Shown: in pieces, positions 1-11,639 of the stretch
Layout: each line of letters begins with the position of its first letter
Numbering within the stretch: position 1 is the first letter of the stretch
NCBI GenBank assembly: GCA_002436115.1
Contig: DIXV01000012.1
Coordinates: 4,775-20,287 of the forward strand
Origin: Streptococcus sp. UBA6071
Lineage (GTDB): Bacteria; Bacillota; Bacilli; Lactobacillales; Streptococcaceae
Direction: 5' to 3'
Length of the DNA: 15,513 nt
Notes under the pieces: model-generated
Told to the model about the DNA's origin: nothing
Databases searched by the model: none
Seen by the model: the letters and a program-made list of their open reading frames with translations, nothing else
Position numbers and translations under genes: made by a program

Positions 1-1699
<1,699 letters not shown>

Positions 1700-2783: not shown

Positions 2784-2828
2784 AAAACAGCCAACTATTA
2801 GGTTTATTGTCTAATGGTTGGCTGTTTT
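2784..2828. terminator. Bidirectional terminator, permease / recF
   Basis: A long stem pairs AAAACAGCCAAC (2784-2795) with GTTGGCTGTTTT (2817-2828). It continues through a T-G wobble and ATTAG (2797-2801) / CTAAT (2811-2815) around a 9-nt loop. The A-run at 2781-2787 and the T-run at 2825-2828 give U-tracts on both strands. The recF stop codon (2811-2813, minus strand) lies inside the stem. Confidence 0.92.
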
Positions 2829-3908
2829 AATTTCCCCTTGATGCACGTGGAATAGCTCAAGTTGATCGGGTAACTGATGAAGATGTTCGAGTGTGGTTGT
2901 GGTAATAAAGGTTTGAACCCTATCTGAAATGGTTTCTAAAAGCTTTATTTGGCGACTATTGTCAAGCTCACTCATGACGTCATCTAGCAATAAAATCGGG
3001 CTTTCACCAGTCAGGTTTTTCATGAGTTCAATTTCTGCTAATTTAAGGGAGAGCACTAGACTACGGTGTTGCCCTTGACTCCCAAAACTTGCATCCATAC
3101 CATTAATGAAAAAATGGAGATCGTCACGGTGGGGGCCAACGCCGGTATTTTTTTTGAAAATATCGCGCTGATGTGACTTTGCTAGAGCAAGTTTAAAGGC
3201 ATTGGAAAGCTCATCAGGGTTTTCAAAGGGGAAAGAACTCTGATAGCTTAAGGTTAAAGCCTCTTTTTGATCTGAGATGCTCCAGTGTTTGCGATGACCA
3301 AATTCCTCTAATTGTTGGATAAAATGTAGACGATCTATGATTACTTTGCTACCAGCAGCAACTAATTGCTGATCTAGGACTTCTAAAAAATCATTATCCA
3401 CCTTTTCAACTTGTTTAAGATAGCTATTACGTTGTTTGAGGATATGGTTATAGTTGGAGAGTTCCGCCAGATAAATTGGCTTTATTTGGCCTAATTCCAT
3501 GTCTATAAATTTTCGGCGTAAAGCTGGTGCTCCTTTGATCAGTTGTAAATCTTCAGGAGCAAAGAGAACCACATTCATGTGGCCAATGTAGGTTGACAGC
3601 TTGTTTTGTTTAAGATGATTAACCTTCGTTATTCTGCCCTTCTTAGATAACTGAACCTCAAGATGGATACTCCCAGCTTGACGAACAAGCTCACCGCTGA
3701 CAGCAATTTCCTGTTTTGAAAAATGAATCAAATCTTTATCTGATTTTGTGCGATGACTCCGAGTTAAGGAAAGAAAGTAGATAGCTTCTAAAATATTGGT
3801 CTTACCCTGTGCGTTTTGCCCCAAAAAAATATTGAGTCCTGGATGAAAATTGACCGTTTGACTTGGGTAGTTTCTAAAATGTTGGAGTTGAATAGATTTA
3901 AGAAACAT
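2811..3908 (-). CDS. recF: DNA replication/repair protein RecF
   Basis: SMC/ABC-type ATPase that binds gapped DNA and, with RecO and RecR, loads RecA. The 365 residues are normal for the family. Visible motifs are Walker A GQNAQGKT (residues 30-37), the ABC-like signature GSQGQHRS (276-283), Walker B ILLLDD (305-310) and the following MSELD. The ATG at 3908 is preceded on the minus strand by AGGA with 8 nt spacing, lying within the last codons of yaaA. Only 2 bp separate the yaaA stop from this start, so the two are probably translationally coupled. Unlike in Bacillus, recF is not next to dnaN/gyrB. Its stop codon is buried in the shared terminator. Confidence 0.97.
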
Positions 3909-5655: not shown

Positions 5656-6944
5656 GTGGAGATTTAAGAAAACATGACTTTCCAAGGGTCAAGGAAGAAG
5701 TTTTCAAAAAAACATTGGCAAATGGCTTGCAGGTAGTTTTAATTCCCAAACCAGACTATCATGAGTTCTTTGCAATGGCAGTTACAAAGTTTGGTGCTAT
5801 GGACACAGTTTTTAAACCTAACAATCGCAAGAGGCATCAAGTGTTTCCAGCAGGAATTGCGCATTTTCTAGAACATTGTTTGTTTGAAATGAAAGATGGA
5901 GAAGATGCCTTACAGGTGCTTTCTCATCTAGGCGCCCAAGCAAATGCCTTTACAACCTATACTCAGACAGCCTACTATTTTTCCTGCACGACTCGTGTTC
6001 TAGAAAGCTTAGAGGTGTTACAACAGTTTACAACCTTGTCAAGATTCTCTGAAAAGAGTTTACTTAAAGAAAAAGAAATTATAAAGCAAGAAATAAGGAT
6101 GTATCAAGATGACCCCGACTATCAACTTCGTCGTTCCATTTTGGCACAGCTTTACCCAGAAACTCCCTTGGCAGATGATATTGCTGGAAGTTTAGAGTCA
6201 ATTACTCCAATTGACAGAACACTTTTAGAAAAAGCTTTTGATGTTTTCTACCAACCGTCCAACATGCTTTTGTTGCTGGTAGGAAATTTTGATCCCAAAG
6301 AGTCATTAGAGGCCATTGAAAATTACCAAAATAGGGGACGTATTAAGAAGAGAAGAGTTATTGATAAAACTCCATTAAAACATCTACCTGTCAGGAGTTC
6401 AGCTAATCTGGATATGTTGGTTTCAGGGCCTAAACTAGCTGTTGGACTAAGAGGACAGCTAACTCTCACAAATTGGCCGACTAAAACTTATCGCTTAGCC
6501 TTGCGTTTGCTTTTTTCAATGATTTTAGGTTGGACCTCCTCAACTTACCAAAAGTGGTATCAAAAAGGGAAGATAGATGATTCGTTTGCTATCGAAATAG
6601 AAGTTTCCGAGGCTTATCGCTTTGCGCTTATTACACTTGATACAACTGAACCCTTGGCTATGTCTAAACGGATTAGGCAACTAATCAAGAATTTTGAACA
6701 ATTGGAAGATTTAACAGAGGAGCACTTTGAGCTGGTCAAAAAAGAAATGTATGGTGACTTTATGGCATCAATGAATCATTTAGAGTCTATGGCCGTGGAG
6801 TACGCTTCTTCTTGGGGAGAGGACGAAGATGTTTTTTCTCTGCCGGAAATTATAGATAATTTGGCCTTGACTGATGTCCTAAAGATTGGGCGGGACTTTA
6901 TTTTAGAAGCTGACACAACAGATTTTATTATTTTTCCGAGATAG
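5652..6944 (+). CDS. yfmH: M16 zinc peptidase-like protein YfmH
   Basis: A 430-residue M16-family metallopeptidase homologue and the likely catalytic partner of YfmF. The inverted zinc motif HFLEH is at residues 71-75, with E74 as the general base. The downstream glutamate ligand probably lies in the KEKEIIKQE segment near residue 147. A second, non-catalytic M16 half follows (residues ~200-430). Translation starts at GTG 5652, overlapping the yfmF stop, with a GGGAG SD 4 nt upstream. There is no signal peptide, so it should act in the cytosol. In Bacillus this pair is required for EF-P modification; the reductase YmfI that accompanies it there is not encoded next to it here, so the target may differ. 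No terminator separates it from rodZ, only a promoter. Confidence 0.92.
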   Translation: MSGDLRKHDFPRVKEEVFKKTLANGLQVVLIPKPDYHEFFAMAVTKFGAMDTVFKPNNRKRHQVFPAGIAHFLEHCLFEMKDGEDALQVLSHLGAQANAFTTYTQTAYYFSCTTRVLESLEVLQQFTTLSRFSEKSLLKEKEIIKQEIRMYQDDPDYQLRRSILAQLYPETPLADDIAGSLESITPIDRTLLEKAFDVFYQPSNMLLLLVGNFDPKESLEAIENYQNRGRIKKRRVIDKTPLKHLPVRSSANLDMLVSGPKLAVGLRGQLTLTNWPTKTYRLALRLLFSMILGWTSSTYQKWYQKGKIDDSFAIEIEVSEAYRFALITLDTTEPLAMSKRIRQLIKNFEQLEDLTEEHFELVKKEMYGDFMASMNHLESMAVEYASSWGEDEDVFSLPEIIDNLALTDVLKIGRDFILEADTTDFIIFPR

Positions 6945-8427: not shown

Positions 8428-9261
8428 ATGAATGTAGTTGATGTTAAACACCTAAAGTATAGGTATAAGGAAGAATCACAAGATTATATTCTAGATGATG
8501 TTTCGTTTCACGTGAAACAAGGAGAGTGGTTATCTATCATCGGGCACAATGGGTCAGGGAAGTCAACACTAGTTCGGTTGATAGATGGCCTTTTGTTAGC
8601 AGAATCAGGAGATATATATATATCAGGAGACTTGTTGACTGTAGATAATGTTTGGGAAAAACGCCGCCAAATTGGCATGGTCTTCCAAAATCCAGACAAT
8701 CAGTTTGTTGGTGCGACTGTTGAAGATGATGTTGCTTTTGGGCTAGAAAACCAAGGGGTTCCTTTAGCAGAAATGAAAGAACGGGTCACAGAGGCTTTAG
8801 AACTCGTTGGGATGGCCGATTTTAAAACACGAGAACCTGCTCGACTTTCCGGTGGGCAAAAGCAACGAGTTGCCATTGCGGGAGTTGTCGCACTTCGACC
8901 AGATATTATCATCTTGGATGAAGCAACTTCCATGTTAGATCCTTTGGGACGTTTGGAGTTGATTGCGACAATTAAACGAATAAAGGATAAATACGGGATA
9001 ACTTTGATATCAATCACTCATGACTTAGATGAAGTTGCTCTAAGTGACCGTGTTTTGGTTATGGCTTCTGGAAAAATAGAGTCAATTAATAGCCCAAGAG
9101 GTCTATTTGCACGTAAGGATTTACATGATCTGGGTCTTGATTTTCCTTTTACGCAACGCTTGAGACTTGAGTTGCAAAAGATAGGTTTTGAGTTGCCGGA
9201 TAATTATTTAACAGAAAAGGAATTGCAAGATACATTATGGGAATTACTCTCCAACAGGTAA
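8428..9261 (+). CDS. ecfA1: ECF transporter ATPase EcfA1
   Basis: One of the two ATPases of the energy-coupling-factor transporter, which powers uptake of vitamins and metals together with EcfA2, EcfT and exchangeable S components. Of 277 residues, Walker A GHNGSGKS is at 39-46, the Q-loop FQNPDNQF near 86-93, signature LSGGQ at 140-144, and Walker [14 protein letters not shown] around 160-172. The EATSMLD variant is typical of EcfA1. The ATG at 8428 follows the pgsA stop with no gap, and no SD is visible at normal distance, so translation is probably coupled to pgsA. Codons 26-31 carry a near-consensus parS site. The 3' end overlaps ecfA2 by 25 bp. Confidence 0.95.
8504..8519. promoter_or_regulatory. 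parS-like ParB-binding site
   Basis: The 16 bp CGTTTCACGTGAAACA differ from the established parS consensus TGTTTCACGTGAAACA only at the first base. They contain a perfect 14-bp palindrome, GTTTCACGTGAAAC (8505-8518). The site is inside ecfA1, encoding Phe-His-Val-Lys. ParB binds such sites near the origin and spreads from them to recruit SMC condensin. The guaB/recF surroundings agree with an origin-proximal position. The sequence match is direct; binding is inferred. Confidence 0.88.
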
Positions 9262-10082
9262 GCTATACTTATCAAAAGGATACTCCTTTTGAAGGGCAAG
9301 CCCTTTTTGATGTGGACATGACTATTGAAGATGGCTCTTACACAGCTTTAATTGGCCATACAGGTAGTGGAAAATCAACCATACTACAACTCTTGAATGG
9401 TCTAATTAAGCCAACGAAGGGTCAGGTACTTATTGATGATTTTACAATTACGCCAGATTCGAAAGATAAAGCCATAAAGCAAGTGCGTCAAAAAGTAGGA
9501 TTAGTTTTTCAATTTGCAGAAAGTCAGTTATTTGAGGAGACAGTTTTAAAGGATGTTGCTTTTGGTCCCCAAAATTTTGGGCGTTCTCAGGAAGAAGCTG
9601 AACAGATAGCGCGTGAAAAGCTAACTATTGTAGGTATATCTGAAGACTTATTTATGCGGAGCCCTTTTGAATTATCTGGTGGTCAGATGCGTCGAGTTGC
9701 TATTGCTGGTATTTTAGCTATGGAACCAAAGGTTTTGGTCTTGGACGAACCTACTGCTGGGTTAGATCCAGCCGGTCGACGGGAATTGATGCATTTATTT
9801 AAAGAGCTACATCAAGCTGGTATGACAATTGTGCTAGTAACGCATCTAATGGATGATGTGGCAGATTTTGCAGATCAGGTCTATGTTCTGGAAAAGGGAA
9901 GCTTGGTGAAATCAGGGCAACCACATCAGGTTTTTCAAGATCTTGGTTTTATGGAGGCAATTCAACTAGGCGTTCCAAAAGCGACACGCTTTGCTAAGGG
10001 ATTAGTTGATCAGGGCTATTCCTTTGACAAGGGATTGCCTATTAGTCTATCGGAATTAAGGGAGGCTTTACAAGATGGATAA
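9237..10082 (+). CDS. ecfA2: ECF transporter ATPase EcfA2
   Basis: The second ATPase of the ECF energizing module, 281 residues. Walker A GHTGSGKS is at residues 40-47, the Q-loop [12 protein letters not shown] near 91-102, signature LSGGQ at 146-150, and Walker [14 protein letters not shown] around 166-178. The N-terminal [11 protein letters not shown] and [10 protein letters not shown] are typical of EcfA2. It begins inside the last 25 bp of ecfA1. The nearest purine-rich SD (AAAGG, 9216-9220) is 16 nt away, so coupling to ecfA1 is likely. It overlaps ecfT by 8 bp. The strict overlap chain would keep the subunits at matched levels. Confidence 0.95.
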
Positions 10083-10872
10083 ACTCATTATAGGACGATA
10101 CATTCCAGGTCATTCTCTAATCCACCGCCTTGACCCACGCTGTAAACTCTTGTCAATGATTGTGTTTATTCTGATTGTTTTTTGGGCAAATAACTTGTCA
10201 ACGAATCTTCTTATGATTGCCTTCATAATAGGTTTAATATTACTTTCTCGAATAAACTTCTTTTTTTTCCTAGGTGGTTTAAAGCCTATGGTCGGATTGA
10301 TTTTATTTACAACTTTTTTTCAAGCCTTCTTTACAAGAGGAGGAGGAGATGTTTACTGGTCATTTTGGATTTTCCAACTGTCAAGTCAAGGTTTACAGCA
10401 AGCAGGCATTGTTTTTGTAAGGTTTGTTCTTATCATTTTCTTTTCAACGCTTTTGACCTTGACAACTATGCCCTTGAGTATTGCAGATGGTGTAGAGGCT
10501 TTATTGGGACCTTTGAATCGGTTTAAAATTCCTGTCCACGAAATTGGATTAATGCTCTCCATGAGCCTTCGATTTGTGCCAACTCTTATGGATGATACCA
10601 TAAGGATTATGAACGCCCAGAGGGCTAGAGGTGTGGATTTTAATGAGGGAAGTCTGTTGCAAAAGATTAAATCTATTATTCCAATTCTGATTCCTCTCTT
10701 TGCATCGTCTTTTAAGCGAGCAGATGCTCTAGCTACTGCTATGGAGGCAAGAGGTTATCAAGGTGGAACTGGACGAAGTAAGTACCGTGTTTTAGCTTGG
10801 CAGCTGAAAGACAGTTTAGCAATCTTGACACTTCTAGCCTTTGCTGTTCTGCTATTTTTTCTGAAAACTTGA
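10075..10872 (+). CDS. ecfT: ECF transporter transmembrane protein EcfT
   Basis: The membrane scaffold coupling the EcfA1/A2 ATPases to substrate-binding S components. The 265-residue protein has several hydrophobic segments (about 25-60, 70-88, 108-132, 200-212, 246-263). The two coupling-helix ARG signatures expected in EcfT are present, at residues 184-186 (QRARGVDF) and 225-227 (MEARGYQG). The N-terminal [18 protein letters not shown] is characteristic. SD GGGAGG (10060-10065) lies 9 nt before the ATG, inside ecfA2. No S component is encoded nearby, which fits a group II ECF system serving S proteins encoded elsewhere. Its TGA stop is inside the terminator stem that ends the operon. Confidence 0.95.
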
Positions 10873-10927: not shown

Positions 10928-10981
10928 TTGTCATTTTTGTAACATAATCATAAAGATATAGTAACAAATAGTGTGTATGAT
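10928..10981 (+). promoter_or_regulatory. Regulatory region of the LysM gene
   Basis: The 90 bp before the gene hold several TGT(A/T)A-like half-sites. The minus strand of 10928-10944 reads TGTTAC-N5-TGACAA, a partial match (about 10 of 12) to the WalR/VicR direct repeat TGTWAH-N5-TGTWAH. Candidate -10 boxes are TATAGT (10957-10962) and TATGAT (10976-10981), neither with a good -35, so an activator would be needed. WalR control of cell-wall hydrolases is known in Firmicutes; here it is inference. Confidence 0.35.
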
Positions 10982-11018
10982 AGGGAGAGTAAATAATATA
11001 GAACAAAGGAGCATAATC

Positions 11019-11639
11019 ATGCACTTTTCAACACAGCGTGGAATGAAATTCACACTATTAGGTATTACTTCTTTTGCAGCCTTGGCATTTTCTATCTCTG
11101 CCCAAGCAGAAACACACACCGTACAATCTGGTGACACATTGTCAGAAATTGCTGAAAAAAATAATCGCACCATTGACTATTTAGTCGCTATCAATAATCT
11201 CCAAGATCCAGACCATATTGTCTCTGGACAAGAATTGGAATTGGGTGATGGAGAAACTTTTCCTGCAACAGCCAATGCAGCTACTTCAACACCTGCATCT
11301 GTTTACAACTATTCTGAAAATACATATTATGGACAACAATCGGCAACTACCAATAGCAATGCAACAACTACACCAGTGTTGCCAAATGGCAATACTGCAG
11401 GTGCAACAGGTTCCTACGCAGCCTCTAAAATGGCAGAAGCGACAGGAGTGCCCGCATCTACTTGGGAATACATTATTGCACGTGAATCAAACGGGCAAGT
11501 AAATGCCTACAACCCTTCTGGTGCTTCAGGCCTTTTCCAAACCATGCCAGGTTGGGGGTCAACAGCAACAGTTGACGATCAAGTTCAGTCAGCCATCAAG
11601 GCTTACAATGCGCAGGGACTATCAGCTTGGGGCTATTAA
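11019..11639 (+). CDS. Secreted LysM / transglycosylase-like cell-wall protein
   Basis: A 206-residue exported protein. A signal peptide ends at SAQA (cleavage after residue 30). One LysM peptidoglycan-binding domain follows (residues ~32-76, [18 protein letters not shown]). A Thr/Ala/Asn-rich linker spans ~80-140. The C-terminal SLT-like module (~142-206) contains IIARESNG with candidate catalytic Glu156 and the [14 protein letters not shown] pattern. It ends abruptly in LSAWGY, as many IsaA/SceD-like and streptococcal LysM proteins do. It likely binds and perhaps trims septal peptidoglycan; activity is unproven. The start at 11019 has SD AAAGGAG (11005-11011) with 7-nt spacing and an immediate signal peptide. 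An upstream GTG at 10971 would bury the signal and is rejected. It is isolated from ecfT by the terminator at 10864-10897. Confidence 0.9.

Follow-up and report, generated by a model that had tools for sequence, protein, structure and literature searches.

The window analysed here is a 15,513-nucleotide stretch of a Streptococcus draft genome (contig C17, positions 4775-20287; the draft amounts to 1.84 Mb in 141 contigs and is 74.58% complete). It carries guaB and recF and, further along, ecfA1, which encodes the ATPase of an ECF transporter and whose product scores 400 bits against NF010156 and 368 bits against TIGR04520, both over the cut-off (Table 1). Within ecfA1, the 16 bases CGTTTCACGTGAAACA, read on the plus strand, differ from the parS consensus TGTTTCACGTGAAACA by a single mismatch, and the core inside them is a perfect palindrome of 14 bp. 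An earlier note on this DNA had claimed both the 15-of-16 match and the uninterrupted palindrome, as well as the coexistence of Phe-His-Val-Lys coding with a parS site, and all three were borne out: codons 26-31 of ecfA1 are doubly coding. The mismatch at parS base 1 is forced by coding, since it falls on the middle position of the Ser/Thr codon 26, and base 16 of the site changes along with residue 31 (Q/H, R or P).

Table 1. Features of the window that bear on the parS site in ecfA1.
Feature	Position	Strand	Basis or role
parS site CGTTTCACGTGAAACA, 15/16 to TGTTTCACGTGAAACA	8504..8519		consensus match
Palindromic core GTTTCACGTGAAAC, 14 bp	8505..8518		exact at the ecfA1 position in 139/161 genomes
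Doubly coding ecfA1 codons 26-31 (Ser26 TCG, Phe27 TTT, His28 CAC, Val29 GTG, Lys30 AAA, Gln31 CAA)	8503..8520	+	codon tables, tree-based counts
ecfA1, ECF-transporter ATPase, host gene of the site	8428..9261	+	NF010156 and TIGR04520 over cut-off
guaB (IMP dehydrogenase), setting	218..1699	+	TIGR01302 over cut-off
recF, setting	2811..3908	-	TIGR00611 over cut-off
yfmH codons 55-60 (KPNNRK in the window)	5814..5831	+	place of a second parS in one clade

The window contains two matches to TGTTTCACGTGAAACA at up to three mismatches, as compared with 0.10 expected from 200 shuffles. The second of them, TATTGCACGTGAATCA at 11474-11489, has three mismatches, lies within an open reading frame (10971-11639) and is probably due to chance. 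The genome-wide search at up to two mismatches that the earlier note had proposed was run on the draft, and it found two places with at most one mismatch, namely the ecfA1 site and C19:19052-19067, where the contig ends 252 bases away, and one further place with two mismatches (C9:6002, with adhE and thrC on either side). Across the ecfA1 regions of 161 genomes, 2.08 Mb altogether, 155 exact copies of the core were counted, whereas neither its reversal nor any of 60 randomly drawn palindromes with matching half-site composition has a single exact match.

The conservation of the site was followed in 161 Streptococcus genomes, comprising the window and 160 of the 195 relatives with ecfA1, which are not a random draw; ecfA1 itself was found in 196 of the 197 genomes of the genus. 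Besides the genomes with the exact core at codons 26-31 (Table 1), 13 are one base off and nine at least two, so that 152 of the 161 keep the core to within one mismatch. In nine of the 13 one-off cores, T replaces C at core position 7. Anywhere in the genome, the exact core is present in 184 of the 197 genus genomes and absent from 13, while the reversed control was found in none. A search with the 16-mer at one mismatch leaves 23 of the 197 genomes without a site; in part, this number reflects the method, since the site of many species reads CG...ACG and so mismatches at two outer bases.

The earlier note had also inferred selection on synonymous codons, and had named free synonymous variation of the palindrome in close relatives as the observation that would speak against it. 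The comparison of codons 26-31 across the 161 genomes revealed no such freedom. Synonymous steps were counted among genomes having the residue of the window, on a tree of six neighbouring genes from which ecfA1 was left out, and the expectation was taken from codons of equal degeneracy; each control gene could be used in at least 153 and up to all 161 of the genomes, and the recF alignments include over-extended starts. Codons 26-30 underwent 14 steps (Ser26 3, Phe27 2, His28 5, Val29 4, Lys30 0), where 128.7 were expected. Their ratio of 0.109 ranks lowest among 251 five-codon windows in seven genes, the next being 0.565, and neither 1,000,000 degeneracy-matched nor 1,000,000 residue-matched draws of codons reached 14 even once. 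Taken singly, Ser26, Val29 and Lys30 are extreme (1/270, 2/318 and 4/398 codons of their kind change as little), but Phe27 and His28 do not stand out from the other two-fold codons in this way (9/398 and 18/398). Of the 1,056 codons scored, eight others had zero to two changes, and several of these sit at the ecfA1-ecfA2 and ecfA2-ecfT overlaps, where double coding is to be expected. Immediately downstream of the site, the step numbers are 37 for Gly32, 27 for Glu33, 48 for Leu35, 45 for Ser36 and 42 for Gly39. Selection at the DNA level, a feature of parS, is therefore found at the ecfA1 site.

The constraint extends beyond silent positions, further than the earlier note had claimed, as residue 28 and the first base of codon 31 also follow the DNA site. 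His28 is present in 151 of the 152 genomes that keep the site and in none of the nine that lost it. This coupling is partly built in, because a change of the His codon damages the core; however, none of the nine lost the core by silent changes alone. Codon 31 begins with C in all 152 site keepers, encoding Q, R, H or P; over the 161 genomes, Q is the commonest residue 31 (81 genomes), ahead of R (53), H (14), K (7), P (5) and E (1). Similarly, the third base of codon 26 is G in 153 of the 161, although the codon may specify Ser, Thr, Gly or Glu. Lys30 occurs in 151 of the 152 keepers, but it is weaker evidence because most losers also retain Lys. Outside the genus, FHVK at residues 27-30 was found in none of 70 homologues, for which the search patterns included FHVKQGEW, so that any bias would be toward FHVK; the core has at least four mismatches in all 70. 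His28 occurs in three of them, and residue 28 is otherwise S, T, D, E, A or others. The in-frame position of the core in ecfA1 would account for the freezing of codons 26-30 and for the retention of His28 and of the C that opens codon 31. The parS site seems to shape the EcfA1 protein, apparently setting some of its amino acids.

A parS site would be expected to occur in few copies, clustered near the origin and parB, and to be accompanied by a ParB protein with parS-type specificity residues; both features are found in the relatives of the window's organism. ParB (TIGR00180) scores over the cut-off in 195 of the 197 genus genomes and in all 189 good ones; the two in which no match over the cut-off was found are the window's own draft and another that is 86% complete. 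No dnaA over the cut-off was found in the own draft either. Given that neither parB nor dnaA was recovered from it, the origin stretch is most likely missing from this assembly, whose contig starts 13.2 kb upstream of ecfA1, and the presence of ParB in the organism is inferred from its relatives. The earlier note had placed the site in an origin-proximal setting. This holds in the relatives, where dnaA and the ecfA1 core are separated by 10.7-22.2 kb in 12 single-contig genomes (15 were searched; two lacking the ecfA1 core and G162 were left out), but it cannot be read from the own draft. Among the matches listed, 69 exact cores in 27 genomes share a contig with parB, at a median distance of 13.3 kb and a maximum of 94 kb. 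Alignment of one streptococcal ParB with Spo0J and Noc chains revealed that it keeps the parS-type Arg and Gly at the equivalents of residues 173 and 201. A motif script run over loci L252-L290 did not pick up every parB copy but captured eight ParB sequences from seven genomes, with Arg at the 173 equivalent in all eight and, at the 201 equivalent, Gly in six and Ala in two. The Ala-bearing proteins are those of L284 and L272; Gly201 is described as absolutely conserved in ParB in excerpts of PMC7383237.

Could the stretch instead be kept for the protein, with Phe-His-Val-Lys needed in the ATPase and codon bias adding the rest? Phe27 in 161 of 161 genomes and Val29 in 160 of 161 would agree with this, but the frozen codons include minority choices (in the six neighbouring genes, 6.2% of the Ser codons are TCG, 24.1% of the His codons are CAC and 16.7% of the Val codons are GTG), and the equally invariant Gly39 uses all four codons, GGT in 82 genomes, GGG in 37, GGA in 27 and GGC in 15. 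Together with the rank among the 251 windows, the scarcity of His28 in homologues outside the genus and its disappearance from all nine genomes without the DNA site, these observations led us to reject a protein requirement supplemented by codon bias, which we regard as extremely unlikely. Conservation of an RNA element, such as a hairpin or an attenuator in the ecf transcript, appears exceedingly improbable as well. Palindromes can form hairpins, and the centroid structure has a 5-bp stem; however, the single sequence folded, 8474-8549, does no better than its shuffles (z 0.21, 116 of 200 as good or better), on which ground an RNA element was rejected, and the core is also found in yfmH in a different frame, beside rlmH and elsewhere near the origin.

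A reader other than ParB itself, either a relative with another job, for example nucleoid occlusion of the Noc type, or some other DNA-binding protein, is very unlikely, although it draws on two observations. Two streptococcal ParB proteins match the Noc model, TIGR04285, at 224-225 bits, which is under its 315-bit cut-off, and the available text of PMC7022226 describes a pneumococcus without ParA, so that the role may differ from classic segregation. The Noc binding site (NBS) resembles parS in being a palindrome and is bound by a ParB paralogue. According to excerpts of PMC7383237, however, NBS half-sites have A at base 1 and C at base 6, and Noc proteins have Gln173 and Arg201. The ecfA1 core has G and A at these bases, and streptococcal ParB has Arg at the first residue and Gly or Ala at the second, so that both the site and the 173 equivalent of its presumed reader are of the parS type. 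A one-mismatch core, GTTTCACGGGAAAC, in which one half is parS-type and the other Noc-like at base 6, turns up repeatedly on the right arm, in most cases 31-39 kb after dnaA and in L286 at 69 kb (L276 4928, L277 5616, L279 7420, L280 8390, L281 9445, L283 9028, L286 9023, L287 8155), and several genomes also have a one-mismatch core of this type around +11 kb. A weak parS is one possible reading of it, a mere conserved stretch of gene another.

The palindrome in ecfA1 is, in our judgement, very probably a working chromosomal parS, a loading site for ParB. ParB is a CTPase clamp, and parS is the site at which it is loaded. We infer that ParB dimers would load at the ecfA1 parS, that the loaded protein would spread by sliding over the adjacent genes (ecf, pgsA and rodZ), and that its recruitment of SMC would lead to the organisation and segregation of the origin region; selection for ParB binding would then maintain the 14-bp core. 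In its sequence, its palindrome, its clustering near parB and the origin and the genus-wide conservation of its ParB, the site is like other chromosomal parS, the 16-bp centromere-like sites of the ParB/Spo0J family. Unlike chromosomal parS generally, it is held in one structural gene over most of the genus sample, strictly freezes codons and some amino acids, and has a further copy in yfmH in one clade. Judged from sequence comparison, it is a parS of ordinary type in an unusually durable, dual-coding position, with ParB binding as a prediction.

Mapped on the tree, presence of the site (at most one mismatch) requires five changes, with presence at the root. The yfmH copy, an exact core at nucleotide 166 that encodes Val-Ser-Arg-Glu-Thr, lies 2.64-2.66 kb upstream of the ecfA1 site and is shared by 14 genomes, which together make up one clade (support 0.998). 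Eight of these keep the ecfA1 core, and six, comprising five S. sanguinis-like genomes and L116, are without it. Two separate losses would explain its absence in this clade; one loss followed by one regain takes an equal number of steps, but a regain would demand that the same 14 bases arise anew at the same codons. The second parS is not present in the yfmH of the window, where 12 of the 14 core bases mismatch. The nearest relative outside the clade, L134, reads VPRGTK at this place with six mismatches, and L113, L118 and L123 read IPRGSN with five to six. Elsewhere, L215, which lost the ecfA1 core, carries a core with one mismatch 1.5 kb upstream, within rodZ. In L205, which also lost it, the closest other core adjoins rlmH and is not a new substitute, because other species carry it too. 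At ecfA1, the core of L216 has two mismatches, and the 13 kb of this locus yielded no further site with one mismatch or none. A nearby substitute is thus present for three of the five loss events. The genomes with both copies suggest that gain came before loss. We somewhat favour a history in which a centromere site came to write protein: parS would have arisen in ecfA1 near the root of Streptococcus and fixed His28 and the first base of codon 31, and a strong need for an origin-side site would have let it move by gain before loss, with the gain in yfmH (VSRET), some genomes keeping both copies, and two lineages that lost the ecfA1 site now having Gln28.

As far as sequences can tell, the site in ecfA1 is a real and strongly selected parS of a known kind, dual-coding, protein-shaping and kept over most of the genus. 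It offers a clean natural case in which a short, putative DNA-binding site overrides the choice of codons, and of some amino acids, in an unrelated gene. The position of parS, beyond its mere presence, is maintained over most of the genus, and the existence of species with both copies, either or neither makes the importance of that position directly testable.

The pneumococcus, which belongs to the same genus, is described in the available text of PMC7022226, citing Minnen 2011, as having four parS close to oriC and an orphan parB (parA is absent), with ParB recruiting SMC. Further excerpts place one conserved parS downstream of the pneumococcal ori and two proximal sites upstream (PMC12416852), and three parS on the left replichore (PMC12014288). 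Our literature search found no account of a parS in ecfA1/cbiO, nor of synonymous selection on parS; the primary pneumococcal papers were outside its reach, and ParB binding at exactly this site may already have been published. One of the pneumococcal sites, parS(-1.6 deg), affects competence and lies 5 kb from comCDE (PMC7022226, as far as its available text goes). A first hint that the ecfA1 site might be this one came from G102, in which 5.1 kb separate the ecfA1 core from a comE-like gene. This identification was rejected: in L284 and L290, which group with S. oralis, another core lies about 5.2 kb from comE, and ecfA1 is 11.2 kb further out. The other core of L284 fits the partial description of parS(-1.6 deg) better than ecfA1 does, and the ecfA1 site may be another of the four.

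Relative to the origin, the ecf operon of G102 (L255 3424, with 8578-10661) lies on the opposite strand, with comE/comD-like genes about 5 kb away; this local rearrangement brings the ecfA1 parS near the competence genes. In other genomes a second core adjoins the end of rlmH, next to htrA-parB (L257 16829, L258 16786, L268 16143, L271 17183, L285 16166, L267 1105); it is exact in four of them and has one mismatch in L267 and L271. L260, L261, L272, L284 and L290 instead have a core 2-5 kb beyond comE.
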